From Candidatus Methylomirabilota bacterium (GTDB lineage Bacteria > Methylomirabilota > Methylomirabilia > Methylomirabilales > JACPAU01): a DNA stretch of 36,311 nt. The stretch covers positions 1 through 36,311 of the forward strand of contig JAKEHP010000021.1 of assembly GCA_022614955.1 (NCBI GenBank). Direction: 5' to 3'. Made by a program: the position numbers and the translations under genes. The notes under the pieces were generated by a model. That model was not told the origin of the DNA, did no database searches, and worked only from the letters and a program-made list of their open reading frames with translations. Below, piece by piece: positions 4,165 through 28,318 of this stretch (the first letter of the stretch is position 1; each line of letters starts with the position of its first letter).

Positions 4165-4195
4165 ACGCCGGGATCGGCGCCGGAAGGGGGCGGCT

Positions 4196-6099: not shown

Positions 6100-6141
6100 G
6101 CCCGGCCGGCGCGGGCATCCCGCCCCGGCGCGGAGGTCGCC

Positions 6142-7485: not shown

Positions 7486-7486
7486 C

Positions 7487-8917: not shown

Positions 8918-9046
8918 CCCCCCAGGGGAACGCGATGCCCTGCATCCTCTGCCCGCCGCCCAGCGTCTAACCACCAGTTGTCAGATTCCAGAAGCAAGAA
9001 CGCCTGGCCCTCTCCAAAGACTGCGCATCGGACAGGAGGCGAGCAG

Positions 9047-9172: not shown

Positions 9173-9212
9173 GGGCGTGCCCGCCGGGGCCCGCTAACGT
9201 GGAGGAGATGCC

Positions 9213-9749: not shown

Positions 9750-9769
9750 GGTGGGGGGGGAACCTGGCG

Positions 9770-10732: not shown

Positions 10733-10764
10733 ACGCCTCGCAACGGAGGAGGGGGAACACACCG

Positions 10765-11868
10765 ATGAAAGCGATCGCGGTATTTCCCGGAAACCCGAAC
10801 AGCGTGCACCTGGCCGAGCTGCCCAAACCGAAGGTGACCGACATCGGGAGCGGCCGGGGGGTGCTGGTCCGGGTGCTGCGCGTCGGGGTGGACGGCACGG
10901 ACCGGGAGATCAACGCCGGCGAGTACGGGGCGGCGCCGAAGGGGTCCGACTTCCTGGTCCTCGGCCACGAGAGCTTCGGCCAGGTGGAGGCGGTCGGGCC
11001 GAACGTCACCGAACTGAAGCGCGGCGACTACGTGGTCGCGATCGTCCGCCACCCGGGCACGAGCATCTACGACCAGATCGGCACCCCCGACATGACGACC
11101 GACGACACCTACTTCGAGCACGGCATCAGCCGGGTCCATGGCTTCCTCACCGAGTACTACGTGGACGAGCCCGAGTTTCTGGTGAAGATGCCGCAGGGCC
11201 TGCGGGAGGTCGGCGTCCTCCTAGAGCCGACGACCGTCGTGGAGAAGGGCATCGCCCAGGCCTACGAGATCCAGCGCCGCCTCCGCGTCTGGCACCCCCG
11301 ACGGGCGGCCGTGATGGGGGCCGGGACGATCGGGCTGCTGGCCACCCTCGTCCTGCGCCTGCGCGGGCTCGAGGTGACGACCTTCGGGCTCACCCGCAAG
11401 CCCTACCTCAACGCGGACCTGATCGAGGCGATCGGCGGCCGGTACGAGTCCACCCAGGACCTCCCGGTCCTCGAGGCGGTCAAGGCCCTCGGGCGGTTCG
11501 ACATCATCTTCGAGGGCACCGGCTTCTCCCCGATCGTGTTCGAGAGCATGCAGGCCCTCGCCAAGAACGGCGTCCTGGTTCTCTCGAGCGTCACCGGCGG
11601 GAACCGGAAAGTCGAGGTCCCGGCCGACAAGATCAACCTGGAGTTCGTCCTCGGGAACAAGGTCATGGTCGGGACGGTCAACGCCAGCCGGGAGTACTTC
11701 GAAATGGGCGTCCGCGACCTGGCGCAGGCCGAGGCCGAGTACCCTGGGTGGCTCCGGCGCCTCCTCACGCATCCCGTTAAGGGCCTGGAGAACTTCCAGG
11801 AGCTATTCGAGAAGCTCACCACGGCCAAGGGAGCCATCAAGGTCTTCTGCGAGGTCGCGCCGGTCTGA
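10765..11868 (+). CDS. Glucose 1-dehydrogenase, medium-chain (archaeal/halophile type)
   Basis: Predicted to oxidise glucose (possibly also other aldoses) with NAD(P) to the lactone. The 367-residue protein has the MDR layout: GDGTDREI-like segment (VDGTDREI, 42-49), LGHESFG (67-72), LLEPTTVVEKG (152-162) and the nucleotide loop MGAGTIGLL (184-192), with the C-terminal region typical of the glucose-dehydrogenase subfamily. The catalytic-zinc Cys of most homologues is Asp 43 here, with His 68, Glu 69 and Glu 154 retained. The four-Cys structural-zinc loop is absent. Both traits match the haloarchaeal (Haloferax mediterranei) enzyme. The ATG at 10765 follows GGAGGAGGGGG; the upstream in-frame TTG at 10729 overlaps the previous gene. 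Gluconolactone formed here could be opened by the SMP-30 proteins only if the two share a compartment, as this protein has no export signal. Confidence 0.88.
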   Translation: MKAIAVFPGNPNSVHLAELPKPKVTDIGSGRGVLVRVLRVGVDGTDREINAGEYGAAPKGSDFLVLGHESFGQVEAVGPNVTELKRGDYVVAIVRHPGTSIYDQIGTPDMTTDDTYFEHGISRVHGFLTEYYVDEPEFLVKMPQGLREVGVLLEPTTVVEKGIAQAYEIQRRLRVWHPRRAAVMGAGTIGLLATLVLRLRGLEVTTFGLTRKPYLNADLIEAIGGRYESTQDLPVLEAVKALGRFDIIFEGTGFSPIVFESMQALAKNGVLVLSSVTGGNRKVEVPADKINLEFVLGNKVMVGTVNASREYFEMGVRDLAQAEAEYPGWLRRLLTHPVKGLENFQELFEKLTTAKGAIKVFCEVAPV

Positions 11869-11908
11869 ACTTCGGTCCCGGCGGCAGCCCGGGGGAGGAT
11901 CGCCACGG

Positions 11909-13255: not shown

Positions 13256-13308
13256 GGGGAGAGGCCGGGATTGCGGCCGGAGGGTGCCGGCCGGAGGAGG
13301 ACCCAGGG

Positions 13309-15381
13309 ATGATCCGATTCGGTCCCGAGGTGTGCGGGAATCTGGACGCGGCGCTCGGCCGCGAGTGGCTGGAAACGAACGGCCTCGGCGGCTTCGCCTC
13401 CTCCACCATCGTCGGGCTCAACACCCGGCGCTACCACGGCCTCCTCACGGCCGCCACGAAGCCACCGGTTGGCCGCCTGGTTCTGCTTTCGAAGTGTGAA
13501 GAGACGCTTCTCATTGATGGGCATCGCTTCGAGCTCTCGGCCAACCGGTATCCCGGCGCCGTCCACCCACAGGGCTACCAGTACCTCAAGCAATTCCGGC
13601 TCGACCCGTTCCCCGTGTTCACGTACGTGATTGAAGGGATGGAGATCGAGAAGGCCGTGTTCATGCGGCAGGGCGCGAACAGCACGGTCATCCAGTACGC
13701 CCTCCGCGGGCCGGCCCACCGACCGACCGCCGGTTCCCCACCCGGCCACGGCCACATCCAGCTCGAGGTCCGCCCCCTCATCGCCTTTCGCGACTACCAC
13801 AGCACGACCCACGAGAACCCCGTCCTCGACCCGCACGTGCAGGCGGAGCCGAACCTCGCCAGCGTTGCCCCCTATGGGGGCCTGCCCCGGCTGTACGTCG
13901 CGCACGACGCCGACGCCCTGGACCCAGCGGGTACCTGGTATCGCAACTTCGAGTACGACGTGGAGCGGGAGCGGGGCCTCGACTTCCGGGAGGACTTGTT
14001 CAGCCCGTTCACCCTGACCTTCGATCTCACCCGCCGCGCGCAGGCGGCGATCGTCGCCTCCACCGAGCGGACGGACATCCGGCTCGTTCCCGCCTTCCGC
14101 CAGGCGGAGGTGATCCGCCGCAACGCGGTCCTCGCCACCTCTCCCGCCAAGGACGATGTGGCGCGCATGCTGGTGGCCGCGGCCGACCAGTACATCGTCG
14201 CCCGGGGAGACCAGAAGACGGTCATCGCCGGCTACCATTGGTTCAGCGACTGGGGCCGCGACACCATGATCGGGCTCCCCGGCCTGACCCTCGCGACGGG
14301 CCGCGCGGACGTGGCGAAGAGCATCCTCCTGGCCTTCGCGCGCCACGTGGATCAGGGCATGCTCCCGAACCGCTTCCCCGACGCGGGGGAGCAACCCGAG
14401 TACAACACGGTGGATGCCACGCTCTGGTTCTTCGAAGCCGTGCGGGCCCTGCTCCACTACACCGAGGACTACGCCTTCGTCCAGGCGAACCTCTACCCCG
14501 TGCTGGCGGACATCATCGCCTGGCACGTGCGCGGGACCCGCTACGGGATCCGCATGGACCAGGACGGACTGCTCACCTCAGGCGCGGAGGGCGTCCAGCT
14601 CACCTGGATGGACGCCAAGGTCGGGGATTGGGTGGTGACGCCCCGGCGCGGCAAGCCGGTCGAGATCCAGGCCCTCTGGTACAACGCCCTTTGCGTCATG
14701 GCCCACCTGGCGGAGGTCTTCGGCGACGCGACGGGCCAGGACCGCTACAGCAAGATGGCGGCCCAGGCCCAGCGCAGCTTTACCCCGCTCTTCTGGAACG
14801 AGGCGGCCGGGTGTCTCTACGACGTGGTGGACGGGGAGGACCGGGATCCCTCCATCCGGCCGAACCAGATCTTGGCCCTCAGCCTCGCGCACCCTCTGCT
14901 CTCCGACGAGAGAGCCCGGCGGGTGGTCGAGGTCGTGGTGCGCGATCTCCTCACGCCCTACGGCCTGCGGAGCCTGGCGCCGGGCGACCCGCAGTACCGG
15001 GGGCACTACGAGGGCGATCCCCGGAGCCGCGACGGCGCCTACCACCAGGGCCCGGTCTGGCCGTGGCTCATGGGCCCGTTCATCAGCGCCTACGTGAAGG
15101 TCAACGGCCGCAGCCCGGCGGCCCGCGAGCGGGCGGCGGCGTTACTCAACGGCTTCCGCGAGCACCTGCACGACGCCGGCCTCGGGCAAGTGTCGGAGAT
15201 CTTCGACGGTGACGCGCCGCACCGGCCGCGCGGGTGCGTCGCCCAGGCCTGGAGCGTGGCGGAACTGCTGCGCGCCGCGGTCGAAGACGTCTTGGGGCCG
15301 AAGCCGACCCGACCCGCGCCGGGAGGAGGCCGGGGCGCGGACCCCGCCCCCCCCAAGGGCAGGACGCGTCCGCGCGCCTGA
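13309..15381 (+). CDS. Glycogen debranching enzyme, amylo-alpha-1,6-glucosidase (GH133)
   Basis: Predicted to hydrolyse alpha-1,6 branch points of glycogen or limit dextrin, releasing glucose. The 690-residue protein has an N-terminal beta-sandwich domain (GDE_N type: EWLETNGLGGFASSTIVG at 19-36, NTRRYHGLL at 38-46) and a C-terminal (alpha/alpha)6 barrel with GYHWFSDWGRDTMIGLPG (308-325), NTVDATLWF, LTWMDAK and YHQGPVWPWLMGPF. These are standard for bacterial GH133 enzymes. The ATG at 13309 follows GGAGGAGGA; the much longer frame upstream is a shadow over the NDH-2 gene. There is no signal peptide, so it is cytoplasmic, and free glucose could go to Glk or to glucose dehydrogenase. A Pro/Gly/Arg-rich tail of about 30 residues is not part of the fold. 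Confidence 0.93.
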   Translation: MIRFGPEVCGNLDAALGREWLETNGLGGFASSTIVGLNTRRYHGLLTAATKPPVGRLVLLSKCEETLLIDGHRFELSANRYPGAVHPQGYQYLKQFRLDPFPVFTYVIEGMEIEKAVFMRQGANSTVIQYALRGPAHRPTAGSPPGHGHIQLEVRPLIAFRDYHSTTHENPVLDPHVQAEPNLASVAPYGGLPRLYVAHDADALDPAGTWYRNFEYDVERERGLDFREDLFSPFTLTFDLTRRAQAAIVASTERTDIRLVPAFRQAEVIRRNAVLATSPAKDDVARMLVAAADQYIVARGDQKTVIAGYHWFSDWGRDTMIGLPGLTLATGRADVAKSILLAFARHVDQGMLPNRFPDAGEQPEYNTVDATLWFFEAVRALLHYTEDYAFVQANLYPVLADIIAWHVRGTRYGIRMDQDGLLTSGAEGVQLTWMDAKVGDWVVTPRRGKPVEIQALWYNALCVMAHLAEVFGDATGQDRYSKMAAQAQRSFTPLFWNEAAGCLYDVVDGEDRDPSIRPNQILALSLAHPLLSDERARRVVEVVVRDLLTPYGLRSLAPGDPQYRGHYEGDPRSRDGAYHQGPVWPWLMGPFISAYVKVNGRSPAARERAAALLNGFREHLHDAGLGQVSEIFDGDAPHRPRGCVAQAWSVAELLRAAVEDVLGPKPTRPAPGGGRGADPAPPKGRTRPRA

Positions 15382-15410: not shown

Positions 15411-16238
15411 ATGCTCAGTGCGCTCAGACGCCACTGGCCCGAGTACCTGATGGAAGCCGCGGGACTCGGTGGCTTCATGATCTCGGCGTGCCTCTTCACG
15501 GTGCTCCTGGAGTACCCGACCTCGCCCGTCCGGCAGGCCATCGCCGACCCCCTCCTGCGGCGCCTCCTGATAGGGGTGGCGATGGGCCTCACGGCGGTCG
15601 GGATCATCTACTCGCCCTGGGGCCAGCGGTCCGGAGCGCACCTCAACCCCGCAGTCACGCTCACCTTCTTCCGCCTCGGCAAGGTCCGGGGCTGGGATGC
15701 CCTCTTCTACGTGGCCGCCCAGTTCGTGGGGGGCGCCGCCGGGGTCCTGCTCGTGGCGCTCGCGCTCGGCCGCGCCCTCGCCCACCCGTCCGTGAACTAC
15801 GCCACCACGGTCCCGGGGGTCGCCGGGCCCGGCGTCGCCTTCGCGGCCGAGGCGGTGATCTCCTTCGGCCTCATGCTGGTCGTGCTGACCGTCTCGAACA
15901 CGGACCGCGCAGCGCGCCTCACGGGGCTCTTCGCGGGCCTGCTGGTGGCGACCTACATCAGCGTGGAGGCCCCGCTGTCGGGGATGAGCATGAACCCCGC
16001 CCGCACCGTCGGCTCCGCCCTGCCCGCGCAACTCTGGACGGCGCTGTGGATCTACTTCATCGCCCCGCCGCTCGGCATGCTGCTGGCAGCGCAACTGTAC
16101 CTGGCGGTGAAGGGCGCGGGCGGGGTCATCTGCGCGAAGCTGCACCACCAGAATGCCCAGCGGTGTATCTTCCGGTGCGGCTATCAGAAGCAGGAGGCCA
16201 AGCCATGGGCGCTCCCGCTCGCGGATCGGATGGCATGA
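15411..16238 (+). CDS. Aquaporin-type MIP family channel with Cys/His tail
   Basis: Six-helix water or small-solute channel of 275 residues. The two half-helix motifs are present: SGAHLNPAVTL (NPA at 79-81) and SGMSMNPARTVGSAL (NPA at 195-197). The residue after the second NPAR is Thr, not the Asp typical of glycerol facilitators, which favours an aquaporin-like pore. After the last helix there is a cytoplasmic tail with CAKLHHQNAQRCIFRC (241-256), three cysteines and two histidines, a possible metal- or redox-active element. The ATG at 15411 has CAGAGGA upstream. It follows the debranching enzyme by 29 bases; a role in osmotic adjustment during glycogen mobilisation is possible but speculative. 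Confidence 0.87.
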   Translation: MLSALRRHWPEYLMEAAGLGGFMISACLFTVLLEYPTSPVRQAIADPLLRRLLIGVAMGLTAVGIIYSPWGQRSGAHLNPAVTLTFFRLGKVRGWDALFYVAAQFVGGAAGVLLVALALGRALAHPSVNYATTVPGVAGPGVAFAAEAVISFGLMLVVLTVSNTDRAARLTGLFAGLLVATYISVEAPLSGMSMNPARTVGSALPAQLWTALWIYFIAPPLGMLLAAQLYLAVKGAGGVICAKLHHQNAQRCIFRCGYQKQEAKPWALPLADRMA

Positions 16239-16388: not shown

Positions 16389-16799
16389 ATGCATCGGAGT
16401 GGTCATGCCCGGCTCATTCGTGGGGTGTTGCTGCTGGGTCTCGCCGGCGTTTTCCTGCTCGTCGCGAGCATTGCCTTCGCCGCCGAGATCCGAACCGCGA
16501 AGCCCTTTGCGGGCAATACGGTGAACGGCGGGACGGCAGTCTTCTCGAACACCGGGGGGAAGCGGACGCTGACCTGGTCCGACGACTTCAAGATCCCCGG
16601 CTCGCCGGCGCCGCACTGGCAGGTAGTGGACTCGAAGGGCAACGTCTACCTGCTCAACCGGTTGGCCATCAAAGACAACAAGCAGAACCGGACGATCCCG
16701 ATCCCGGCCTACGTGCCCGACATCGCCAAGGTCCAGTTCTGGTGCGCCTGGGCGGAGGTCCTGCTCGGGGAGGCGCCGTTCGACAAGCCGGTGAAGTAG
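16389..16799 (+). CDS. Exported small protein, DM13-like (predicted redox domain)
   Basis: Small exported protein of 136 residues. An N-terminal basic stretch and hydrophobic helix (GVLLLGLAGVFLLVASIAFA) end in a plausible signal-peptidase site near residue 32. The mature part resembles the DM13 domain in layout: GNTVNGGTAVFSNTGG, a middle segment SPAPHWQVVDSKGNVYLL, IPIPAYVPDIAKVQFWCAWAEV with a single Cys at 119, and a final LLGEAPFD. DM13 domains carry a nearly invariant Cys and have been proposed to take part in electron transfer. The ATG at 16389 is preferred over 16368 because GAGGAGGG lies at 16375-16382. The family call rests on pattern only. It heads the exported redox block and is followed by a strong hairpin. 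Confidence 0.62.
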   Translation: MHRSGHARLIRGVLLLGLAGVFLLVASIAFAAEIRTAKPFAGNTVNGGTAVFSNTGGKRTLTWSDDFKIPGSPAPHWQVVDSKGNVYLLNRLAIKDNKQNRTIPIPAYVPDIAKVQFWCAWAEVLLGEAPFDKPVK

Positions 16800-16830
16800 C
16801 GTAGCCGCTCTGAGAGAAACGGAGGAGGAC

Positions 16831-16880
16831 CCGCCGGCCGGCCGTGCGGTGGTCCCAGACCGGGCGCGGTCGGCCGGCGG
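16831..16880. repeat. Long GC-rich inverted repeat (hairpin) between two exported-protein genes
   Basis: CCGCCGGCCG at 16831-16840 is the perfect complement of CGGCCGGCGG at 16871-16880, and pairing continues inward to 16847/16864 with two G-T wobbles, a 17-bp stem. The loop can form a second small stem (GGTC 16851-16854 with GACC 16858-16861). No T-tract follows on either strand, so it is not a classic intrinsic terminator. It lies 31 bases after the DM13-like stop and 26 bases before the HbpS start, where it could pause transcription or protect mRNA ends. Confidence 0.75.
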
Positions 16881-16906
16881 ACCCGATCACTCGGCATGAG
16901 GGAGAA

Positions 16907-17395
16907 ATGATGACCTGGTTCACGCGCATCGGAATGGCTCTGCTCCTCCTGGCCACGGTTGGCATGGGCCACGCCCAGGTAGTGACCAAGAAGGCGCTCA
17001 CCCTGTCCGCGGCAAGAACAATCGCCGCCGCGGCAGAGGCCGAGGCCAAGAAGAAGAATGCCAAGGTCGTCATCGCCATCGTGGATGACGGCGGCAACCT
17101 GCTGTTGCTCGAGCGCCTGGATGACACCCAGGTGGCGAGCGTCGAGGTGGGGATCGGCAAGGCCCGGACGGCGGCGATCTTCCGGCGGCCCAGCAAGGTG
17201 TTCGAAGATCAGATCCGCGACGGGCGCATCGCGGCCCTGGCCCTTGCGGGCGCGACGCCCTTACAGGGGGGCATCCCCATCCTGTTTGAGGGAATGTTCA
17301 TCGGCGCCATCGGGGTGAGCGGGGAAACCCCCGCGCTGGACGAGGAGATCGCCAAAGCGGGAGCCGAGGCAGCGAAGTCTCTTGAGGCAAAGTAG
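16907..17395 (+). CDS. Exported HbpS/GlcG family (heme-binding-like) protein
   Basis: Exported protein of 162 residues. The signal peptide (WFTRIGMALLLLATVGMGHAQ) probably ends after HAQ or HA near residue 25. The mature part is one HbpS/GlcG (PF03928-type) domain: LTLSAARTIAAAAEAEAKKK, VVIAIVDDGGNLLLLERLDD, GIGKARTAAIFRRPS, LQGGIPILFEG and FIGAIGVSG, in the family's usual order and length. Members bind heme or sense redox state (HbpS of Streptomyces) or accompany oxidases of small acids and alcohols. Two adjacent ATGs (16907, 16910) follow GAGGGA. It is paralogous to the first domain of the next gene, so the pair looks like a tandem duplication in which one copy gained a cupin. The ligand is not readable. 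Confidence 0.85.
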   Translation: MMTWFTRIGMALLLLATVGMGHAQVVTKKALTLSAARTIAAAAEAEAKKKNAKVVIAIVDDGGNLLLLERLDDTQVASVEVGIGKARTAAIFRRPSKVFEDQIRDGRIAALALAGATPLQGGIPILFEGMFIGAIGVSGETPALDEEIAKAGAEAAKSLEAK

Positions 17396-17434
17396 CCCTG
17401 GCAGGGCAACGGTCCGCAAAAGGAGAATAGCATC

Positions 17435-18331
17435 ATGAGGTATCTCGGAAGTGTCGCGCTGGGTCTGGTTCTCTCGGCAATGGCCGCGAGCAGCCAGGCC
17501 CAGGTGATGGACAAGAAGGGACTCACCCTGGACGGGGCGAAGCAGGTCATCGCCGCGGCGGTGGCCGAGGCGAAGGCGAGGAACGCCCCGGGGGGCGTCA
17601 TCGCCGTCGTGGATGAGGGCGGCAATCTGATGGCCCTCGAGCGGCTGGACAACACCTTTGCCGCCGGGGCAAACATTTCCATCGGGAAGGCACGGACCGC
17701 GGCCCTTTTCAAGCGTCCCACCAAGGTGTTCGAAGACATTGTCAATAAGGGGCGCACCACGATGGTCGCCCTTCCGGACTTCACGCCGCTCCAGGGCGGA
17801 GTGCCGATCATCGCCGCGGAGCAGGTCATCGGTGCTGTCGGCGTGAGCGGCGCGGCCAGCGCACAGCAGGATGAAGAGCTCGCCATCGCGGGAGCCAATG
17901 CGATCACGGCCACGCCAACCGCCGGAGCCCTCATGCACCCCGGCCTCCCGGTCACCTACATCGAGAGCAAGAAGGTGGCGGAAGCGTTTTCCAAGGGTGC
18001 GGTCCTGATCGGCCAAGAAGAACGGATGATGCATGCCAGCCGCAATTACATGGTGCATGCGAGTCACCGCGATGGACCGGGGATGGCTGAAGTGCACACG
18101 CAGGATACCGACATCATCTACGTGCTGGAGGGTTCGGCCACGTTCGTCACCGGGGGCACCATGGTTGATGGAAAGACCATCGCGCCCGACGAAATCCGCG
18201 GCAAGGAGATCCGCGGCGGAGACAGCCGACGCCTCGCCAAGGGGGACGTCATCATCGTTCCCAACGGGGTCCCTCACTGGTTCCAGCAAGTCAACGCCCC
18301 GTTCAACTATTACGTGGTGAAGGTTCGATAG
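17435..18331 (+). CDS. Exported HbpS/GlcG-cupin fusion protein
   Basis: Exported 298-residue fusion. A signal peptide ending at about SQA (22) is followed by an HbpS/GlcG domain (about 27-165) with VIAVVDEGGNLMALERLDN (55-73), IGKARTAALFKRPTKVFED (83-101) and LQGGVPIIAAEQVIGAVGVSG. A linker then leads to a cupin barrel (about 195-298). In the cupin, motif 1 has His 221 and Glu 232 (EVHTQDTDIIYVLEG), with Gln where a second His is common, and motif 2 is GDVIIVPNGVPHWF with His 281. A single metal or small ligand may be held by His 221, Glu 232 and His 281. The ATG at 17435 follows AAGGAGAA. An HbpS domain beside an exported lactonase and oxidoreductase suggests a redox-related role; the cupin reaction is unknown. 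Confidence 0.85.
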   Translation: MRYLGSVALGLVLSAMAASSQAQVMDKKGLTLDGAKQVIAAAVAEAKARNAPGGVIAVVDEGGNLMALERLDNTFAAGANISIGKARTAALFKRPTKVFEDIVNKGRTTMVALPDFTPLQGGVPIIAAEQVIGAVGVSGAASAQQDEELAIAGANAITATPTAGALMHPGLPVTYIESKKVAEAFSKGAVLIGQEERMMHASRNYMVHASHRDGPGMAEVHTQDTDIIYVLEGSATFVTGGTMVDGKTIAPDEIRGKEIRGGDSRRLAKGDVIIVPNGVPHWFQQVNAPFNYYVVKVR

Positions 18332-18390
18332 AGGATGGCCTGACAGCGCTCCGACACAGACGTGCGGAATGTGATCCGCGAGGATTGCTC

Positions 18391-20034
18391 ATGCAAACTC
18401 GAAGACTGTTTGGGGTTTTCGCCATTACCACCGCGCTGACCTTCTGGCCCCTCGTCACCGCGGCGCAAGGAACGCCGGAGGCGCCCGCTGGCAAGCCGGA
18501 AGCGACGATCAATCTCGCCAGCGAGGAAGGCGTGCGGCTCGTCAAGGGCGAATGGCGGTACAGCGATACCAAGATCATCGAGGTGGATTTCCGGGGCCCG
18601 GGGCCGGACGGGCAGCCGACGGGTCCACCCGTCAAGACCTATGACTACACCCCCAAAGCGGGCGGGGCCGACTTCGATGACTCGCGCTGGGAGGTGGTCC
18701 CTCCGGGCACCCTGGAGAAGCGCCGCTCGACGGGCCGGATCTGCTTCAACTGGTACCGGATCCAGGTCACGATTCCCGAAAAAGTCGGCACCTTCGACCC
18801 GACCGGCTCCACCGTGGTCTTCGAGACCGCTCTCGACGACTACGCGGAGGTCTGGGTGGATGGCGAGCTCCCGCGGGGGCTGGGGCAGCGGGGCGGATCG
18901 GTCATCAGCGGGTGGAACGCTCCCAATCGCCTCGCCATCGGCCGCGACGTCAAGCCCGGCCAGCAGATCCAACTGGCCGTGTTCGGCATGAACGGGCCGC
19001 TCTCGAATCCGCCGACCAACTTCATCTGGATGCGCTATGCGAAGCTGGAGTTTTACAAAGGGACGCCGGGCCCGCTCGCGATGGCGCCGCACGAAGTGAA
19101 TGTGGAGGTCATCCGACGGGATCCGGCGATGGACACCATCGTCGGGCCGAACCCGAAGATCTTCAAGCTCGCCGAAGGCTTCAAGTTCACCGAGGGGCCA
19201 GTCTGGGTCCACGACGGCGGCTACCTGCTCTTCAGCGACCCGAACAGCAACATCATCTACAAGTACACGAGAGACGGGCAGCTCTCCGTGTTCCGCCAGC
19301 CGAGCGGGTACGCCGGGACCGACATTGCCGAGTATGGCCAGCCGGGCTCGAACGGGCTCACGCTGGACCGGCAGGGCAGGCTCACGATCAATGAGCACGG
19401 CAACCGCCGCGTCACCCGCCTGGAGAAGGACGGAAGCGTGACGGTGCTGGCCGATCGGTACGACGGGAAGCGACTCAACAGCCCGAACGACCTGCTCTAC
19501 CGGTCAGACGGGACGCTCTACTTCACCGATCCGCCGTTCGGGCTTCCCAAGTTCTTCGCTGACCCGAGAAAGGAATTGCCCTTCAGCGGGGTCTACTCGC
19601 TGCACAGGGGGAAGGTCCAGCTGATCAGCGCAGACTTGAACGGCCCCAATGGCATCGCCTTATCGCCTGACGAGAGGTACCTCTACGTCGGCAATTGGGA
19701 CGAGAAGAAGAAGGTCGTCATGCGCTACGAGGCGAAGGCTGACGGCAGTTTGGCGAACGGTCAGGTCTTCTTCGATATGACGAGCGCCCCGGGCGAGGAT
19801 GCGCTCGACGGGGTCAAGGTGGACCAGCAAGGCAATCTCTACGTCTCCGGGCCTGGTGGACTCTGGGTCATTTCGCCCGAAGGCAAGCACCTGGGCACGA
19901 TCATTGCCCCCAAGCACATTCATAATATGGCCTGGGGCGACGACGACGGCAAGACGCTCTACCTGACCGCGCGGACCAGTCTGTACCGGATTCGATTGAA
20001 CATCCCAGGCGTTCGTCCATCAGGGCGGCCGTGA
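18391..20034 (+). CDS. Exported beta-sandwich/SMP-30 gluconolactonase fusion
   Basis: Exported protein of 547 residues. A signal peptide (FGVFAITTALTFWPLVTAA) is followed by an N-terminal domain (about 45-225) that looks like a galactose-binding jelly roll: FDDSRWEVV, FNWYRIQVTIP, VVFETALDDYAEVWVDGE, LAIGRDVKPGQQIQLAVFGMNG. The C-terminal SMP-30 six-bladed propeller (about 245-545) keeps the expected metal ligands Glu 268 (FTEGPVW), Asn 366 (NSPNDLLY), Asn 420 (GPNGIALSP) and Asp 473 (ALDGVKVDQQGN). Such enzymes hydrolyse sugar lactones such as gluconolactone. The ATG at 18391 follows GAGGA. It shares many propeller segments with the protein at 20544-21575, so the two are paralogues. The extra domain may bind a sugar; that is inference. 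Confidence 0.85.
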   Translation: MQTRRLFGVFAITTALTFWPLVTAAQGTPEAPAGKPEATINLASEEGVRLVKGEWRYSDTKIIEVDFRGPGPDGQPTGPPVKTYDYTPKAGGADFDDSRWEVVPPGTLEKRRSTGRICFNWYRIQVTIPEKVGTFDPTGSTVVFETALDDYAEVWVDGELPRGLGQRGGSVISGWNAPNRLAIGRDVKPGQQIQLAVFGMNGPLSNPPTNFIWMRYAKLEFYKGTPGPLAMAPHEVNVEVIRRDPAMDTIVGPNPKIFKLAEGFKFTEGPVWVHDGGYLLFSDPNSNIIYKYTRDGQLSVFRQPSGYAGTDIAEYGQPGSNGLTLDRQGRLTINEHGNRRVTRLEKDGSVTVLADRYDGKRLNSPNDLLYRSDGTLYFTDPPFGLPKFFADPRKELPFSGVYSLHRGKVQLISADLNGPNGIALSPDERYLYVGNWDEKKKVVMRYEAKADGSLANGQVFFDMTSAPGEDALDGVKVDQQGNLYVSGPGGLWVISPEGKHLGTIIAPKHIHNMAWGDDDGKTLYLTARTSLYRIRLNIPGVRPSGRP

Positions 20035-20076
20035 AATCACATGTGGTCCATCCTGGTCGGGGAAGAAGCACGCCCC

Positions 20077-20490
20077 ATGAAGAACGAGAAGGTAGCAAGA
20101 TCTGAGACAGAGTGGAAACAGGTCCTGACCTCCGAGCAGTACCGCATCCTGCGGGAGAAGGGCACGGAGCGCGCCTTTACCGGCAAGTACTGGAAGCATA
20201 AGCAGGACGGCACGTACCTCTGCGCGGGATGTGGGCTGGAGTTGTTCAGTTCGGAGACAAAGTTCGACTCCGGAACCGGCTGGCCCAGTTTCTGGGATGC
20301 CATTGACCAGACCAGGATCGAGACCCGGCACGACTCGAGTTACGGCATGCACCGCGTCGAGGCGCTGTGCAGCCGCTGCGGGGGACACCTCGGGCATCTA
20401 TTCGACGACGGCCCCAAGCCCACGGGACAGCGGTATTGCATCAACTCGGCAAGCCTGAAGTTTACGAACGAAAAACCCGGCCGACAGTAG
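20077..20490 (+). CDS. msrB: Peptide-methionine (R)-S-oxide reductase MsrB
   Basis: Reduces methionine-R-sulfoxide in proteins. The 137-residue protein has the zinc-binding pairs Cys 49/Cys 52 (CAGCG) and Cys 98/Cys 101 ([12 protein letters not shown]), [11 protein letters not shown], and the nucleophile Cys 121 in [11 protein letters not shown]. The ATG at 20077 is preferred (GGGGAAGAAG upstream); an in-frame ATG at 20041 lacks a ribosome binding site and adds 12 residues that do not form a signal peptide. Unlike its neighbours it therefore appears cytoplasmic. It lies between two exported lactonase genes, in the less GC-rich part of the window. The placement fits a module exposed to oxidants such as peroxide from flavin oxidases, though this is inference. 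Confidence 0.95.
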
Positions 20491-20543
20491 GGAGTGTTGG
20501 CCCGCGCCGAGTGCTGCGCTCCCTCAACGATAGGGATGAAGGT

Positions 20544-21575
20544 ATGAGCAGATTCCTTCTCTTCCTTCAACTCGTGGTGGCGCTGGTCGCTCCTCTCCAC
20601 TTCGTTCCAGCCGCGGGGGCCCAGCAGAAGAGCCCGTCGGCCAACTTCGGGACCATCGTGCGGCTGGACCCGCGCCTGGACCGATTGGTACCACGCGACG
20701 CGGTACTGGAGAGAATTGCCGGCGGGTTCGCGTGGGTTGAAGGCCCGGCCTGGAGCCGCGCGGGCGGCTTCCTGCTCTTCTCCGACATCCCGAACAACTC
20801 TGTATTCAAGTGGCGGGAGGGGGCCGGCGTCGGCCTCTTCTTGAAACCGAGCGGCTACACCGGCACGGCCCCCTTTGTTGGGCGGGAGCCCGGCTCGAAC
20901 GGGCTGACGTTTGACGCGGCGGGGCGGCTCGTGCTCTGCGAGCACGGGGACCGGCGCATCGCCCGGCTCGAGACGGACGGGCGCAAGACCACGCTGGTGG
21001 ATCGGTACGAGGGAAGGCGGTTCAACAGCCCCAACGACCTGGTCTTCAAGTCGAACGGGGACCTCTACTTCACCGACCCCCCCTTCGGCTTGCCGAAGGC
21101 CTTCGACGACCCGGCCAAGGAACTCGACTTCAGCGGCGTCTACCGCCTGAAGCCGGACGGCCGGATGACGCTGCTCACGAAGGAGATCCGGGCGCCCAAC
21201 GGCATCGCCTTCTCCCCCTCGGAGAAGACCCTCTACGTGAGCAACGCCGACCCGGCCCGGGCTGTCTGGCTGGCCTACGACGTGAAAGACGACGGGACGC
21301 TCGGGAGCGGCCGGGTCTTCTTCGACGCGACGGCCTGGGCGAGGACAAAGCCGGGGGCGCCCGACGGGATGAAGGTGGACCGGGACGGCAACCTCTTCGC
21401 CGCGGGGCCGGGCGGCGTCCACGTCTTCACCCCGGACGGCACGCACCTCGGGAGCATCGAGATGCCGGTGCCGACCGGAAACGTCGCCTGGGGCAACGAC
21501 GGCTCCATGCTCTACATCACGGCCGATACGGCTATCTACCGGATCCGGCTTACCACGAAAGGCGCGGGGTTCTAG
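20544..21575 (+). CDS. Exported SMP-30/gluconolactonase-like protein
   Basis: Exported six-bladed propeller lactonase of 343 residues. The signal peptide (FLLFLQLVVALVAPLHFVPAAGA) is likely cut after AGA at residue 26. Expected metal ligands are Glu 66 (WVEGPAWS), Asn 164 (NSPNDLVF), Asn 219 (APNGIAFSP) and Asp 274 (APDGMKVDRDGN). YFTDPPFGLP and DFSGVYRL are shared with the fusion protein upstream. It lacks the N-terminal beta-sandwich of that protein. The ATG at 20544 has GATGAAGG upstream, a weak ribosome binding site; the longer frame upstream overlaps msrB and is discounted. It is followed by a short GC hairpin and then a GMC oxidoreductase, whose lactone or aldonate product it could process. 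Confidence 0.9.
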   Translation: MSRFLLFLQLVVALVAPLHFVPAAGAQQKSPSANFGTIVRLDPRLDRLVPRDAVLERIAGGFAWVEGPAWSRAGGFLLFSDIPNNSVFKWREGAGVGLFLKPSGYTGTAPFVGREPGSNGLTFDAAGRLVLCEHGDRRIARLETDGRKTTLVDRYEGRRFNSPNDLVFKSNGDLYFTDPPFGLPKAFDDPAKELDFSGVYRLKPDGRMTLLTKEIRAPNGIAFSPSEKTLYVSNADPARAVWLAYDVKDDGTLGSGRVFFDATAWARTKPGAPDGMKVDRDGNLFAAGPGGVHVFTPDGTHLGSIEMPVPTGNVAWGNDGSMLYITADTAIYRIRLTTKGAGF

Positions 21576-21584
21576 CGGAACGGC

Positions 21585-21601
21585 GCCCCCCGGCAGGGGG
21601 C
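21585..21601 (+). other. Short GC-rich hairpin after the second lactonase gene
   Basis: GCCCCC (21585-21590) pairs with GGGGGC (21596-21601) around a five-base loop, ten bases after the lactonase stop. There is no T-tract, so it is at most a pause or a partial terminator. Confidence 0.4.
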
Positions 21602-21643
21602 ACCGCGCGGGGTTCGCGGGAGACGGCAGACGGGAGGACCTCC

Positions 21644-23191
21644 ATGGAACAGGCCAAGCACTACGATGTCATCATCATCGGCACCGGCGCCGGGGGCGGG
21701 ACCCTGGCCTACGCCCTGGCGCCCAGCGGCAAGCGCATCCTGCTCCTGGAGCGCGGGGGCTATGTCCCGCGGGAGAAGGACAACTGGGATACGCGCGCCG
21801 TCGTGACCGAAGGGAAGTACCACATCAAGGAAGCCTGGCACGACACGACCGGCCGGGAGTTCCATGCGGGGACGCACTACTGCGTCGGCGGGAACACGAA
21901 GTTCTACGGGGCCGCCCTCCTCCGCTTGCGCGCGGAGGACTTCGGCGAGGTCAAGCACTACGGCGGGATCTCGCCAGCCTGGCCGATCCGCTACGAGGAC
22001 CTGGAGCCTTACTACACCCGGGCCGAGCACCTCTACCACGTCCACGGCCTGCGGGGGAGCGACCCGACCGAGGCGCCCGCCAGCGCGCCGTACCTGTATC
22101 CGCCGGTCAGCCACGAGCCGCGCATCCAGGCGCTCAGCGACGACCTGACCCGGGCGGGCCTCCACCCCTTCTACCTGCCCGTGGGGATCATGCTCGACGA
22201 GAAGAACCCGGTGAAGAGCCGGTGCATCCGGTGCGCCACCTGCGACGGCCACCCCTGCCTGGTGAACGCCAAAGCGGACGCCCAGGTCATCTGTGTGGAC
22301 CCGGCCCTGGAGCATCCAAACGTCACGCTCCTCACCCACGCCACCGTCACGCGCCTCGAGACCAAGCCCTCCGGCCGCGCGGTCACCGGGGTCGTGGTCG
22401 AGCGCAACGGCGCTCCCGAGACCTATTCGGCCGACATCGTGGTCGTTTCCTGCGGCGCGATCAACTCGGCGGCGCTACTGCTGCGCTCTGCGAGCGACAC
22501 GCACCCCCAGGGGCTGGCCAACAGCTCGGGCGTGGTCGGCCGCCACTACATGTGCCACCTGAACTCGGTCATGCTGGCCCTCTCGCGGTGCCCCAACCCC
22601 ACGGCCTTCCAGAAGAGCCTCGGCCTGAACGACTTCTACTTCGCCTCGAAGGAGTGGGAGTACCCGATGGGGCACATCTCGTTCGTGGGGAAGACCGACG
22701 CCAATGTGCTCGCCGCCGGGGCGCCGAAGATCGTCCCCGGATTCACGCTCGACTTCATGGCCAAGCACTCGCTAGACTTCTGGATGACGTCGGAGGATCT
22801 GCCCGACCCGGATAACCGGGTGACCCTCACCCGGGACGGCAATATCATGCTGAACTACACCCCCAACAACCTCGAGGGGCACACGCGGCTGCAGGCGACC
22901 CTCAAGAGCCTGCTCAAGCACATAGACTGCACCGAGGACCTGATCCACATGCACGCCTACATCGGCAAGCGGATCCCGCTGGCCGGCGTGGCCCACCAGA
23001 ACGGGACGATCCGCTTCGGGCGGGACCCGAAGACCTCCGCGCTCGACGTGACCTGCAAGGCGCACGACCTGGACAACCTCTATGTCGTGGATGGCAGCTT
23101 CTTCCCCTCAAGCACTGCGGTGAACCCGGCGCTCACGATCATGGCCAATGCCCTGCGCGTGGGGGACCACCTCACCGAGCGGCTGGGCTGA
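21644..23191 (+). CDS. GMC family FAD-dependent oxidoreductase with four-cysteine cluster
   Basis: Predicted to oxidise a sugar, alcohol or aldehyde, passing electrons through FAD. The 515-residue protein has the FAD fold VIIIGTGAGGGTLAYAL (9-25), LLLERGG (33-39), CVGGNTKFYGAALLR, and the C-terminal active-site region with a His (LAGVAHQNGTIRFG) and Asn (SSTAVNPALTIMANALR), the His-Asn pair of many GMC enzymes. An insert carries Cys 194, 197, 200 and 205 (CIRCATCDGHPC), a spacing that could hold an iron-sulfur cluster, as in bacterial FAD-dependent glucose dehydrogenases, or zinc. No signal peptide and no small-subunit or cytochrome partner gene are adjacent. The ATG at 21644 follows GGGAGGA. 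Its substrate is not readable; the two lactonases upstream suggest a sugar. Confidence 0.87.
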   Translation: MEQAKHYDVIIIGTGAGGGTLAYALAPSGKRILLLERGGYVPREKDNWDTRAVVTEGKYHIKEAWHDTTGREFHAGTHYCVGGNTKFYGAALLRLRAEDFGEVKHYGGISPAWPIRYEDLEPYYTRAEHLYHVHGLRGSDPTEAPASAPYLYPPVSHEPRIQALSDDLTRAGLHPFYLPVGIMLDEKNPVKSRCIRCATCDGHPCLVNAKADAQVICVDPALEHPNVTLLTHATVTRLETKPSGRAVTGVVVERNGAPETYSADIVVVSCGAINSAALLLRSASDTHPQGLANSSGVVGRHYMCHLNSVMLALSRCPNPTAFQKSLGLNDFYFASKEWEYPMGHISFVGKTDANVLAAGAPKIVPGFTLDFMAKHSLDFWMTSEDLPDPDNRVTLTRDGNIMLNYTPNNLEGHTRLQATLKSLLKHIDCTEDLIHMHAYIGKRIPLAGVAHQNGTIRFGRDPKTSALDVTCKAHDLDNLYVVDGSFFPSSTAVNPALTIMANALRVGDHLTERLG

Positions 23192-23204
23192 GGAGGAGAC
23201 CGGG

Positions 23205-24578
23205 ATGACCAAGTACGACGCGATCGTGATCGGCTCCGGCCAGGGCGGCAACCCCCTCTGCCAGGACCTCGCCGACCGGGGCCGGCGGGTGGCCCTGATC
23301 GAGAAGGAGCACCTGGGCGGCACCTGCATCAACACCGGCTGCACCCCGACGAAGACGATGGTCGCGTCGGCCCAGGTGGCCTACTACGCCCGCAACGCCG
23401 CCCGGTGGGGCGTGCGGACCGGCCCGGTGAGCGTGGACTTGCCCCGGATCGTCGCCCGCAAGGACGGGATCGTCCAGCGGTTCCGGTCCGGGAAGGAGGA
23501 GGCATTCGGCAGCCGCGAGAACCTGCACCTCTACCGCGGCCACGGACGGTTCGTCGAGCCCCACCGGCTCCAGGTCGGGGAGGAGGTTTTCGAAGGAGAG
23601 CGGATCTTCATCAATACGGGCACCCGGCCGGAGATCCCCCGCATCGAGGGGCTGGACCGGGTGGGCTACCTGACCAACGCGACCCTCATGCAGCTCACCG
23701 AGCTGCCGGAGCACCTGCTCGTCATCGGCGGCGGGTACATCGGGCTGGAGTTTGGCCAGATGTTCCGGCGGTTCGGGAGCCGCGTCACCGTCATCCACCG
23801 CGGCGAGCAGATCCTGCCCCGGGAGGACGCCGACGTCGCCGGCGAGCTGCAGAAGGCCCTCGAAGGCGAGGGGGTGCAGTTCGTCCTGAACGCCCGCACC
23901 ACCCGCGCCGAGCGGCGGGGGAAGGAGATCGCCCTGACCGTCGAGGTCGGCACCGGGTCGCAGACGCTCGGCGCATCCCACCTCCTCGTCGCCACCGGGC
24001 GGCGGCCCAACAGCGACGACCTCGGGCTCGAGCGGGCCGGGGTCGCGACCGACAAGCGGGGCTTCATCATGGTGAACAGCCGTCTGGAGACCAATGTCCC
24101 CGGCATCTGGGCGCTGGGCGACGTGAAGGGCGGCCCCGCCTTCACCCACATCTCCTACCACGACTATCAGGTCGTCTATGCCAACCTGACGAACGGAAAG
24201 GGGCTCACCATCGCCAACCGCCTCGTTCCCTACTCCGTCTTCACCGATCCCCAACTGGGCCGGGTTGGGATGACCGAGCGGGAGGCGCGCGCCGCCGGGC
24301 ATCGGCTCAAGATCGGGAAGATCCCCATGTCCTGGGTTGCCCGCGCCATCGAGCGGGACGAGACCGCCGGCCTGATGAAGCTCGTCGTGGACGCCGACAG
24401 CGACCGCGTCCTCGGCGCGGCCATCCTCTCCCTGGAGGGGGGCGAACTGATCCAGATCCTGAGCACCCTCATGCTCGCCAATGCCCCGTACACCCTTCTC
24501 CAGGGCGCCATCTACATCCATCCGACGCTCGCCGAGGGATTCTACACCCTGATGGACGAGGTCAAACCGGTGGAGTGA
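23205..24578 (+). CDS. Pyridine nucleotide-disulfide oxidoreductase, mercuric reductase/dihydrolipoamide dehydrogenase-like
   Basis: FAD- and NAD(P)H-dependent enzyme of 457 residues. It has the FAD loop AIVIGSGQGGNP (6-17), the redox-active disulfide GGTCINTGCTPTKT (Cys 41 and Cys 46), the second nucleotide fold LLVIGGGYIGLEFGQMFRR, VATGRRPN, IWALGDVKGGPAFTH and the C-terminal interface pair His 439/Glu 444 (YIHPTLAEGF). It has no N-terminal heavy-metal domain and lacks the C-terminal vicinal cysteines of true mercuric reductase, so mercury reduction is unlikely. It is not next to any lipoyl dehydrogenase-complex gene. The ATG at 23205 follows AGGAGGAG, 13 bases after the GMC gene, so the two are cotranscribed. 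It might reduce a small disulfide or quinone for this block; the substrate is unknown. Confidence 0.85.
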   Translation: MTKYDAIVIGSGQGGNPLCQDLADRGRRVALIEKEHLGGTCINTGCTPTKTMVASAQVAYYARNAARWGVRTGPVSVDLPRIVARKDGIVQRFRSGKEEAFGSRENLHLYRGHGRFVEPHRLQVGEEVFEGERIFINTGTRPEIPRIEGLDRVGYLTNATLMQLTELPEHLLVIGGGYIGLEFGQMFRRFGSRVTVIHRGEQILPREDADVAGELQKALEGEGVQFVLNARTTRAERRGKEIALTVEVGTGSQTLGASHLLVATGRRPNSDDLGLERAGVATDKRGFIMVNSRLETNVPGIWALGDVKGGPAFTHISYHDYQVVYANLTNGKGLTIANRLVPYSVFTDPQLGRVGMTEREARAAGHRLKIGKIPMSWVARAIERDETAGLMKLVVDADSDRVLGAAILSLEGGELIQILSTLMLANAPYTLLQGAIYIHPTLAEGFYTLMDEVKPVE

Positions 24579-24582
24579 CCGC

Positions 24583-25638
24583 ATGCGGAGAACGCCGCGC
24601 CCCCAGGCAACGCCCCTCCGGCTGATCGCCGCCCTCCCGCTCCTGCTCGCCCTGGCCCTTGGCCTCCCGGCCGCCCTGGCCCAGCAGGCACCCGGTGATG
24701 CGCTCGTCAGCGCCGTGGACGCCATCGGGATGACCGTGGCCGACATGGAGCACTCGGTCGCGTTCTACACGAAGGTCCTCCCCTTCGAGAAGGTGGCGGA
24801 CGTGGAGGTCGCGGGCGCTGACACCGAGCACCTCCAGGGTGTCTTCGGCCTCCGGATGCGGGTTGTGCGCCTGAGGCTCGGCGACGAGTTCGTCGAGCTG
24901 ACCGAGTACCTGGCGCCCCGCGGGCGGCCGATCCCGGTGGACTCCCGGAGCAACGACCGCTGGTTCCAGCACGTCGCCATCATCGTGAGCGACATGGACC
25001 GCGCCTACCACCACCTGCGCCAGCACCGGGTCGAGCACGCCTCCACCGGCCCGCAGCGGCTGCCGGACTGGAACCGGAACGCGGCCGGCATCCGGGCCTT
25101 CTACTTCAAGGACCCGGACGGGCACCACCTGGAGATCCTCCAGTTCCCGCCCGACAAGGGGGACCCGAAGTGGCACCGGCCGAGCGGGAGGCTCTTCCTG
25201 GGCATTGACCACACGGCGATCGTGGTGGGCGACACCGAGGCGAGCCTGCGGTTCTACCGGGACGTGCTGGGGATGAAGGTGGTCGGCGAGAGCGAGAACT
25301 CCGGAACAGAGCAGGAGCACCTGAACAATGTCTTCGGCGCCCGGCTCCGGATCACGACGCTCAAGGCCGCGGCCGGGCCGGCCGTCGAGTTCCTCGAGTA
25401 CCTCACCCCGCGGGACGGCCGCCCGATGCCGGCGGACGCGCGCGCCAACGACCTCTGGCACTGGCAGACCCGCCTCGTCGCCCGCGATGCCGAGCGGGCC
25501 GCCGGGAGCCTGCGGGCTGGCCGTGCCGCCTTCGTATCGCCGCGGGTGGTGGGGCTGCCGGACGCGCTCCTGGGATTCCGCAAGGGCTTCCTCGTGCGGG
25601 ACCCGGACGGGCACGCCATACAGGTGATCGAACGCTGA
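24583..25638 (+). CDS. Exported tandem VOC (glyoxalase/dioxygenase-fold) protein
   Basis: Exported protein of 351 residues, not recognised to a reaction. After a signal peptide ([21 protein letters not shown], cut near residue 34) come two VOC units: one at about 41-190 ([37 protein letters not shown]) and one at about 203-350 ([36 protein letters not shown]). Each unit ends in the DPDGHxxxxxx edge strand that supplies a metal-ligand Glu or equivalent: Glu in the first (LEIL) and Gln (IQVI) in the second, so the second site may be altered. VOC proteins include glyoxalases and ring-cleaving dioxygenases, most of which are cytoplasmic. The ATG at 24583 starts four bases after the previous stop. 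Confidence 0.82.
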
Positions 25639-25666: not shown

Positions 25667-28318
25667 ATGGGGACCAGAGAAGAACAGCGACTGGAGGAAG
25701 CGCGCGAGCGGCGGATGCACTGGAAGCGCTGGGGGCCCTACCTCAGCGAGCGCGCCTGGGGGACGGTGCGCGAGGACTACAGCCCCTACGGCACGGCCTG
25801 GGACTACCTTCCCCACGACCACGCCCGGTCCCGGGCCTACCGCTGGAACGAGGACGGCCTGGCCGGCATCTCGGACCGGCATCAACTGATCTGCTTCGCC
25901 ATCGCCCTGTGGAACGGCCGCGACCCCATCCTCAAGGAGCGGATCTTCGGCCTCACCGGGAGCGAGGGCAACCACGGCGAGGACGTGAAGGAGTATTACT
26001 TCTACCTGGACAGCACCCCGACCCACTCCTATATGAAGTACCTCTACAAGTACCCCCAGGCGGCCTTCCCGTACGGCGAACTGGTCGCCGAGAACCGCCG
26101 GCGGGACAAGCGGAGCCTGGAGTACGAATTACTCGACACCGGGGCCTTCGCGGAGAACCGGTACTTCGACGTCTTCGTCGAGTACGCCAAGGCGAGCACC
26201 GAGGAGATCCTCGTCCGGATCAGCGTGGTGAACCGCGGGCCCGAGGCGGCCGCTCTGCACCTGCTGCCGACCCTCTGGTACCGCAACACCTGGTCCTGGG
26301 GGCGGGACCCCCGCCGGCCCCGCCTCCTCCGGGGCAAGCCCGTCAGGGACGCGAGCGTGGTCGAGGTGGACCACCACACCTACGGCCGCCGCTGGCTCTA
26401 CTGCGCCGGCCGGCCCGCCCTGCTTTTCACCGAGAACGAGACGAACCTCCAGCGGCTCTACGGCGCCCCGAACCCCTCCCCCTACGTGAAGGACGCCATC
26501 AACGAGTACATCGTCCACGGGATCAAGGAGGCAGTGAACCCCGAGGGCCTGGGGACGAAGATGGCCGCGCACTACTCCCTGCACGTCGGCCCGGGCGAGA
26601 CGGCCACCGTCCGGCTCCGGTTCACGGACAGCGCCCCGGCGGCCGGGAGCGGCCCCTTCGGCCCCGACTTCGACCAGACCTTCGCCGAGCGGCAGCGCGA
26701 GGCGGACGAGTTTTACGGGATGGTCATCCCCCGGGACCTCTCAGCCGACGCGCGGGACGTGATGCGGCAGGCTTTCGGGGGGCTCCTCTGGTCCAAGCAG
26801 TTCTACCACTACGCGGTCAAGGACTGGCTCGATGGCGACCCGGGCTTCCCGGCCCCGCCCCCCGAGCGACGCCACGGCCGCAACCGCGAGTGGACGCACC
26901 TGTACAACGCCGACGTCATCTCCATGCCGGATAAGTGGGAGTACCCCTGGTACGCCGCCTGGGATCTGGCCTTCCACTGCATCCCCCTGGCGTTGGTGGA
27001 CTCCGACTTCGCCAAGGAGCAATTGGTCCTGATGCTGCGCGAGTGGTACATGCACCCGAACGGGCAGCTCCCGGCCTACGAGTGGGCCTTCGGGGACGTG
27101 AACCCGCCGGTCCACGCCTGGGCCGCCTGGCGAGTGTACAAGATCGAGAAAAAGCGGCGTGGCGTGGGCGACCGCCAGTTCCTCCAGCGCGTCTTCCACA
27201 AGCTCATGCTCAACTTCACGTGGTGGGTCAACCGGAAGGATGCTGAGGGGATGAACATCTTCCAGGGCGGCTTCCTGGGCCTGGACAACATCGGCGTATT
27301 CGACCGGAGCGCCCCGCTGCCCACCGGCGGCCACATCGAGCAGTCGGACGGGACCTCCTGGATGGCCATGTACACCCTGAACATGCTGGCGATCGCGATG
27401 GAACTGGCGCGGGAGGACCCGGCCTACGAGGACGTGGCCAGCAAGTTCTGGGAGCACTTCATCTACATCGCCCACGCGATGAACAACCGGGGCGGCGAGG
27501 GGATCGAACTCTGGGACGAGGCCGACGGCTTCTACTACGACGTGCTCCACCTGCCGAACGGCGACCACTTCTTCCTGAAGGTCCGCTCCATGGTGGGGCT
27601 GATCCCGATGTTCGCCGTGGAGACGCTGGAGTCGAAGCTGGTGGACCGGCTGCCCGGCTTCAAGCGGCGGCTTGAGTGGTTCATTGACAACCGGCCGGAC
27701 CTGATCCAGCACCTGGCCTGCATGCGGACGCCCGGGCAGGGGGAGCGACGGCTCCTCTCCATCCTCACGGCCGACCGGCTGCGGAGCGTGCTCCGCTACA
27801 TGCTCGACGAGAGCGAGTTCCTGTCCCCCTACGGCATCCGCGCCATCTCGCGGTTCCACAAGGAGCACCCATACGTCCTCTCGGTCAACGGGGCGGAGCA
27901 CCGGGTGGACTACGAGCCGGCCGAGTCGAGCACGGGCCTCTTCGGCGGCAACTCGAACTGGCGCGGCCCCATCTGGTTCCCAGTGAACTACCTGCTCATC
28001 GAGTCGCTCCAGAAGTTCCACCACTACCTCGGCAGCGAGTTCAAGGTGGAGTGCCCGACCGGCTCCGGCCGGATGATGACCCTGTGGCAGGTCGCCGCGG
28101 AACTCTCCCGCCGCCTCACGCGGACCTTCCTCCGCGGCCCCGACGGCCGGCGGCCGGTCTTCGGCGGCATCGAGAAGTTCCAGCGGGACCCGCACTGGCG
28201 GGACCTGATCCTGTTCCACGAGTACTTCCACGGGGACGACGGGGCGGGGGTCGGCGCCAACCATCAGACCGGCTGGACCGGGGTGGTGGCGAAGCTGCTG
28301 CAGCAGAGCGGGGAGTAG
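25667..28318 (+). CDS. Large glucosidase-like protein, MGH1/GH63-type
   Basis: Predicted alpha-glycoside hydrolase of 883 residues with no signal peptide. It matches the long bacterial glucosidase group related to GH63 by its overall layout: an N-terminal domain with [20 protein letters not shown] (about 19-38) and [19 protein letters not shown], then an (alpha/alpha)6 barrel with [63 protein letters not shown] and [22 protein letters not shown]. Acidic residues in these last motifs are candidates for catalysis but cannot be assigned. The ATG at 25667 follows AAGGAGAGA. It is the final gene of the plus-strand run and, with the GH133 enzyme, implies breakdown of a glucan or glucosyl-glycerate-type compatible solute. 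The substrate is unproven. Confidence 0.85.

Follow-up and report, generated by a model that had tools for sequence, protein, structure and literature searches.

The stretch of DNA analysed here, called the window below, comprises 36,311 bases of contig JAKEHP010000021.1, from the genome of a soil-type Candidatus Methylomirabilota bacterium, assembled to 2.8 Mb in 624 contigs (95.5% complete, 8.3% contaminated). Our subject is a run of genes beginning at position 16389, all on the plus strand, in which a gene for an exported fusion of an HbpS-like (DUF336) domain with a cupin domain (C) stands directly before a gene for an exported two-domain protein with an SMP-30/gluconolactonase propeller (D). 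Open reading frames and family searches confirm the nine consecutive genes, A to I at 16389-25638, together with the families that a first-pass annotation had named for them. As the intergenic gaps from A to J measure only 4-107 bases, the run also takes in J, which encodes an MGH1-like glycoside hydrolase.

16389..16799, plus strand: A, small exported protein, weakly DM13-like, with an invariant Cys119, upstream of the HbpS genes
16907..17395, plus strand: B, exported single-domain HbpS/GlcG-like (DUF336) protein (PF03928, E=1.7e-33; signal heuristic)
17435..18331, plus strand: C, exported HbpS-cupin fusion with a candidate cupin metal site (His221, Asp226, His281)
18385..20034, plus strand: D, exported two-domain protein of 549 amino acids, an N-terminal domain followed by an SMP-30/gluconolactonase propeller
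18499..19110, plus strand: N-terminal domain of D, predicted to be beta-rich, without a Pfam family
20071..20490, plus strand: E, MsrB without a signal peptide (Pfam SelR, E=1.1e-53)
20538..21575, plus strand: F, exported single-domain SMP-30/gluconolactonase (SGL profile, signal heuristic)
21644..23191, plus strand: G, GMC dehydrogenase without a signal peptide, with Cys194/197/200/205, His451 and Asn494
23208..24578, plus strand: H, FAD pyridine-nucleotide disulfide oxidoreductase of the RclA/MerA-like group
24583..25638, plus strand: I, exported protein with two VOC domains, the usual neighbour of G
25667..28318, plus strand: J, MGH1/GH63-like glycoside hydrolase, 28 bases after I

Signal peptides were called with a simple heuristic based on hydropathy and cleavage sites rather than with SignalP. 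By this measure a signal-peptide-like N terminus is present in exactly six of the nine proteins (A, B, C, D, F and I), which agrees with the first-pass count, and it is absent from E (MsrB), G (GMC) and H (disulfide-reductase-like).

Several lines of evidence tie C to D. Of 37 loci in which domains were mapped frame by frame, 36 have an HbpS gene immediately before D, and a cupin was detectable in 33; the one locus without HbpS in that place lies on a 3.3-kb contig. These loci span the window's own phylum, Acidobacteriota, candidate division KSB1, Verrucomicrobiota and Pseudomonadota, and a collection-wide scan finds relatives of the HbpS-cupin protein in metagenome-assembled genomes labelled Acidobacteria, Terriglobia, Verrucomicrobia, Burkholderiales, proteobacterium and candidate division KSB1. 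In our first neighbourhood table A, B, C and D occur together in most carriers of the HbpS-cupin gene, and within the window's phylum the HbpS-cupin gene and full-length D are found in the identical 4 of 95 genomes, side by side. The linkage of HbpS-cupin, SMP-30, DM13-like, GMC and VOC genes thus extends to several phyla, and the idea that the neighbourhood is confined to close strains is refuted. The open-licence literature yielded no combination of HbpS with SMP-30 and cupin, of GlcG with SMP-30 and GMC, or of DUF336 with gluconolactonase. The conserved operon of an HbpS-cupin and a two-domain SMP-30 gene is a real and widespread module, apparently undescribed as far as that literature shows, and the N-terminal domain of D is its only domain outside the known families. 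DUF336 proteins are widespread, but only three from bacteria have been characterised biochemically (PMC8153426); a conserved operon partner narrows the possible roles of the exported members. That a pair stays together across at least five phyla predicts shared function well, and the question of what an exported HbpS protein binds becomes testable with two small proteins.

The module is patchily distributed. D is missing from three further members of the window's own genus, and in the sampled phyla it was found in 18 of 396 Acidobacteriota, 8 of 82 members of the KSB1 phylum, 1 of 289 Verrucomicrobiota and 1 of 399 Pseudomonadota. The four copies from the window's phylum do not group together in the maximum-likelihood tree computed for D: the window copy pairs with that of a genome of the same order (99/98), and a copy from another family of the phylum sits among the Acidobacteriota. 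To fit the well-supported branches, the own-phylum label must change at least twice, and the KSB1 label likewise. Taken with the patchy distribution, these changes point to transfer of the module between phyla. Among 72,556 plasmid records there was no HbpS-cupin match and no near-full-length D. At two loci, in G008 (L118:17349-18257, minus strand) and in a proteobacterium (L037:9956-10867, plus strand), the cupin-fused HbpS domain is of the B type, with 75-79% identity to B; that it lies closer to B than to C suggests recombination or exchange between tandem HbpS copies. Frames of about 800 amino acids in three genomes (G039, G105 and G233) seemed to fuse HbpS-cupin to SMP-30, a Rosetta-stone link, and were rejected, the genes lying in different, overlapping GC-rich frames.

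The membership of the other genes was judged from 34 D loci (591 kb) set against 40 control stretches (652 kb, each up to 20 kb) from the same genome set. Every one of the 34 loci contains D by construction; the loci are related by descent and Fisher p-values overstate the evidence, so that it is the contrast and the phylum spread that count. HbpS occurred in 34/34 loci, A and a MIP channel in 16/34 each, VOC in 12/34, a Spondin_N protein in 11/34, GMC in 10/34, the glycogen debranching enzyme GDE in 9/34, and F-like SMP-30 and MGH1 in 8/34 each, and none of these was present in any of the 40 controls. The same is true of extracytoplasmic function (ECF) sigma factors (12/34 and 8/34 loci) and of DoxX (8/34). 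A glucose 1-dehydrogenase-like enzyme was found at 2/34 loci and in 1/40 controls. MsrB (only 2/34) and the disulfide-reductase-like H (only 1/34) do not count as conserved members.

A and the Spondin_N protein are mutually exclusive, and both occupy the slot upstream of HbpS; the latter (Pfam E=2.3e-7 in L084) replaces A at 11 Acidobacteriota loci (L083-L087, L089-L092, L094 and L116). The DM13-like character first ascribed to A holds only as a weak likeness: profile comparison with true DM13 proteins gives E=2.4e-4 but a probability of only 44%, and the best homologue of A matches Pfam DM13 at E=0.1 with 13.6 bits, below the cut-off of 25. We therefore rejected A as a bona fide DM13 (PF10517) protein; judged by sequence, it is at most related to this family. 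True DM13 proteins are encoded a few kb or less from the module at three loci (L113:14953-15936, plus strand; L111:2314-3291, minus strand; L116:16973-17467, plus strand), two of them with E=1e-27 and 4e-15 and the KSB1 ones fused to Ig-like repeats, hinting that DM13-type proteins were tied to the module more than once.

The first-pass reading of the SMP-30 proteins as lactonases fits what we find. Against the profile of the six-bladed SGL propeller, PF08450 (cut-off 26.3 bits), D scores 130.6 and F 151.3 bits. The metal ligands of D, Glu268, Asn321, Asn366 and Asp473 (counted from the start at 18391), are invariant in 36/36 sequences, and F shows the motifs EGP, SNG, SPND and PDG when aligned to 3dr2. 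The structure of D is predicted with good confidence, at a predicted local distance difference test score (pLDDT) of 86, and the best Foldseek matches of its propeller half are the gluconolactonases 3e5z and 3dr2, with template modelling (TM) scores of 0.87-0.89 by target length. From these likenesses we infer lactonase activity for D and F, probably on a sugar lactone. D is similar to the XC5397-type exported gluconolactonase (3dr2) in propeller fold, export and four metal ligands, with about 30% identity in the fold match, but has an extra N-terminal domain of about 200 residues and the HbpS-cupin partner gene. The roughly 200 residues that follow the signal peptide of D show a mean column identity of 71%, against 65% for the whole alignment, so this domain is at least as conserved as the rest. 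It has no Pfam family, and Pfam and PDB profile searches give weak matches alone, to sialate O-acetylesterase (E=0.005) and, for one member, to a GH2 galactose-binding-like domain (E=0.16); any role in carbohydrate binding is guesswork. The fold search of D is dominated by the propeller and includes the Deinococcus Cu/Zn superoxide dismutase (SOD)/propeller lactonase (9m58), a precedent for an SMP-30 propeller tied to another function, although 9m58 has a SOD domain where D has its N-terminal domain, and an HbpS partner is not described for it.

B and C are clear members of the HbpS family, with PF03928 scores of 115.8 and 108.9 bits (cut-off 25), and Foldseek matches C to 2a2l, 9jth and 6bws. 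Streptomyces HbpS binds heme and iron and has a role in oxidative-stress signalling (PMC3754957); other DUF336 ligands are heme and cobalamin in PduO and formaldehyde in EfgA (PMC8153426). Like the HbpS of Streptomyces reticuli, C is an exported DUF336 protein of the same fold, and it retains the family-conserved Lys83 and Asp143 as K85 and D146. Unlike in that protein, however, HMMER alignments show the heme-binding Thr113 and the iron-accepting Lys108 replaced by F116 and V111 and the iron motif E78xxE81 by N80 and I83 (B, read by eye, has E and I), and a pair resembling SenS/SenR was not seen to accompany the module consistently. These replacements speak against the earlier suggestion that HbpS senses heme or redox state here. 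The EfgA pocket residues R42, K57, S114 and D121, by contrast, are kept: they correspond to R70, K85, S138 and D146 in C (with an inferred offset of 20 residues between native and chain numbering of EfgA), all of them invariant or almost invariant across 28 sequences. At the level of sequence this shows that C keeps a usable small-ligand pocket; it is not evidence of formaldehyde sensing. Because these residues are largely conserved family-wide, the match does not single out EfgA (6bws/6c0z), which shares with C the HbpS-like domain and the four pocket residues but is cytoplasmic, has no conserved gene context (PMC8153426) and is not described with a cupin, whereas C is exported and cupin-fused. 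Within the cupin of C, H281 is invariant and H221 and D226 are present in at least 90% of the 28 sequences; the usual second His of cupin motif 1 varies.

Among solved structures, G is closest to the FAD glucose dehydrogenase of Burkholderia cepacia and to fructose dehydrogenase, enzymes in which a 3Fe-4S cluster passes electrons to heme c and which have a hitch-hiker subunit of the twin-arginine translocation (Tat) pathway (PMC9727119). The cysteine cluster noticed in the first pass is substantiated: Cys194/197/200/205 align with the Fe-S loop of 6a2u, with a different spacing, and together with H451 and N494 are invariant in eight homologues. G thus has in common with the B. cepacia-type enzymes the GMC fold, the His/Asn pair and the Fe-S-loop cysteines, but differs in the cysteine spacing, in the Tat small subunit (Gluconate_2-dh3, PF13618), which was not found in the 95.5% complete genome, and in the adjoining cytochrome subunit, which was not seen beside G within the window. 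By sequence it resembles the Fe-S GMC dehydrogenase class (BcGDH/FDH) and would carry a putative cluster. Given this likeness and the missing Gluconate_2-dh3, G is more likely a cytoplasmic dehydrogenase than an extracytoplasmic, peroxide-making oxidase.

Upstream of the run lies a large carbohydrate cluster (765-15381) with genes for a glucose-6-phosphate (G6P) dehydrogenase, a 6-phosphogluconolactonase, a glucokinase-like protein and two NDH-2-like enzymes; upstream genes named without a family search were read from their translations. The cluster also holds the first two of the following features.

10765..11868, plus strand: glucose 1-dehydrogenase-like enzyme (Pfam Glu_dehyd_C, E=1.1e-50)
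13321..15381, plus strand: amylo-alpha-1,6-glucosidase, glycogen debranching (Pfam GDE_C, E=1.1e-131)
15411..16238, plus strand: MIP-family channel, aquaporin/glycerol facilitator (Pfam MIP, E=8.6e-31), 150 bases upstream of A

The glucose 1-dehydrogenase-like enzyme is a potential cytoplasmic source of gluconolactone. Promoter and terminator candidates in the region show no excess over chance expectation, and no RNA families or tRNAs were found.

We propose, with about even confidence, that the module is an exported binding-protein and lactonase system attached to sugar-oxidation genes. Its core would consist of a DM13-like or Spondin_N protein, an HbpS and/or HbpS-cupin protein, and the two-domain SMP-30 protein, that is, of three to four exported proteins. 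Outside the inner membrane D, here aided by F, would open a lactone with the help of a divalent metal ion, the lactone being most likely a sugar-derived aldonolactone, and the HbpS-cupin protein would presumably bind a small carbonyl or acid ligand of the same chemistry as a buffer, sensor or partner enzyme. Lineage by lineage, this module may have been plugged into sugar-oxidising genes, namely a cytoplasmic Fe-S GMC dehydrogenase with its tandem VOC protein and, as further variable partners, a soluble glucose dehydrogenase, glycogen and alpha-glucan hydrolases and a MIP channel. The proposal draws on the co-inheritance of HbpS-cupin and D, the invariant metal ligands and the gluconolactonase folds; the small-carbonyl ligand is suggested by the EfgA pocket residues kept in C, and the sugar context by the glucose dehydrogenase-like enzyme, G6P dehydrogenase, 6-phosphogluconolactonase and GDE upstream, by MGH1 downstream and by the kin of the GMC enzyme.

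Several points weigh against this proposal. Over a span of about 10 kb, most D loci lack GMC, GDE and MGH1, and many Acidobacteriota loci have sigma factors and DoxX as neighbours instead of sugar genes; the sugar link is thus regional, not universal. The sugar-oxidising enzymes are cytoplasmic and the lactonases exported, so that a lactone would need to cross the membrane or come from outside. In addition, the Deinococcus SOD-propeller protein hydrolyses 2-coumaranone and does not efficiently hydrolyse gluconolactone (PMC12362111). An SMP-30 propeller whose metal site is of this kind can thus favour other esters, and a site resembling that of gluconolactonases does not have to act on gluconolactone.

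A second possibility, which we put forward only tentatively, is an undescribed, horizontally shared extracytoplasmic system in which a reactive carbonyl or lactone would be sensed or captured by the HbpS-cupin protein and then passed on to D, a dedicated two-domain lactonase with an N-terminal domain outside the Pfam families. The main rival, which we think rather unlikely, is a role in envelope oxidative stress: the propeller, together with HbpS and the DM13-like or Spondin_N protein, would protect or monitor the cell surface under oxidants, lactone hydrolysis would act as repair, and the sugar genes would be mere neighbours. The ECF sigma factors (12/34 and 8/34) and DoxX (8/34) found at D loci and in none of the controls would fit such a role, as would the MsrA or MsrB genes that recur at a few loci, the MsrB and RclA/MerA-like enzymes in the window, the signalling role of Streptomyces HbpS (PMC3754957) and the fusion of a Deinococcus propeller lactonase to superoxide dismutase (PMC12362111). 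However, deletion of that fusion had no noticeable stress phenotype (PMC12362111), the heme and iron residues of HbpS (Thr113, Lys108, E78xxE81) are replaced in C, and neither MsrB nor the RclA-like gene is a conserved member. Less probable again is a role in carbohydrate degradation, in which the N-terminal domain of D would bind a polysaccharide or glycan, the propeller would act on a sugar ester or lactone there, and the HbpS-cupin protein would have an accessory role, isomerase-like or in binding; genes for GDE, MGH1 and a subtilase bearing a glycogen-binding module do recur nearby, but the sialate O-acetylesterase and GH2 matches of the N-terminal domain are below or near the noise limit, and the glycoside hydrolases of the window have no export signal. 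Least of all do we favour the nine-gene extracytoplasmic pathway of the first-pass annotation (GMC making sugar lactones and oxidants, SMP-30 opening the lactones, HbpS sensing heme or redox state and MsrB repairing damage), which is very improbable: its gene order, families and six export signals are correct, but GMC, H and MsrB have no such signal, the Gluconate_2-dh3 export subunit was not found in the genome, G is closest to Fe-S glucose/fructose dehydrogenases, which deliver electrons to a cytochrome rather than to oxygen, and MsrB (2/34 loci) and H (1/34) are rarely conserved.

Two further sets of neighbours recur. The subtilase, which carries a C-terminal glycogen-binding (AMPK1_CBM) module, is encoded near D at 8/34 loci, for example at L083:13846-15318 (minus strand) and L088:6722-8188 (plus strand). 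At the Acidobacteriota loci L086, L087, L090, L092, L096-L098 and L113 the recurrent neighbours are ECF sigma factors, a DedA-like/ATP-grasp-like protein and DoxX-like proteins, which possibly form a regulon.

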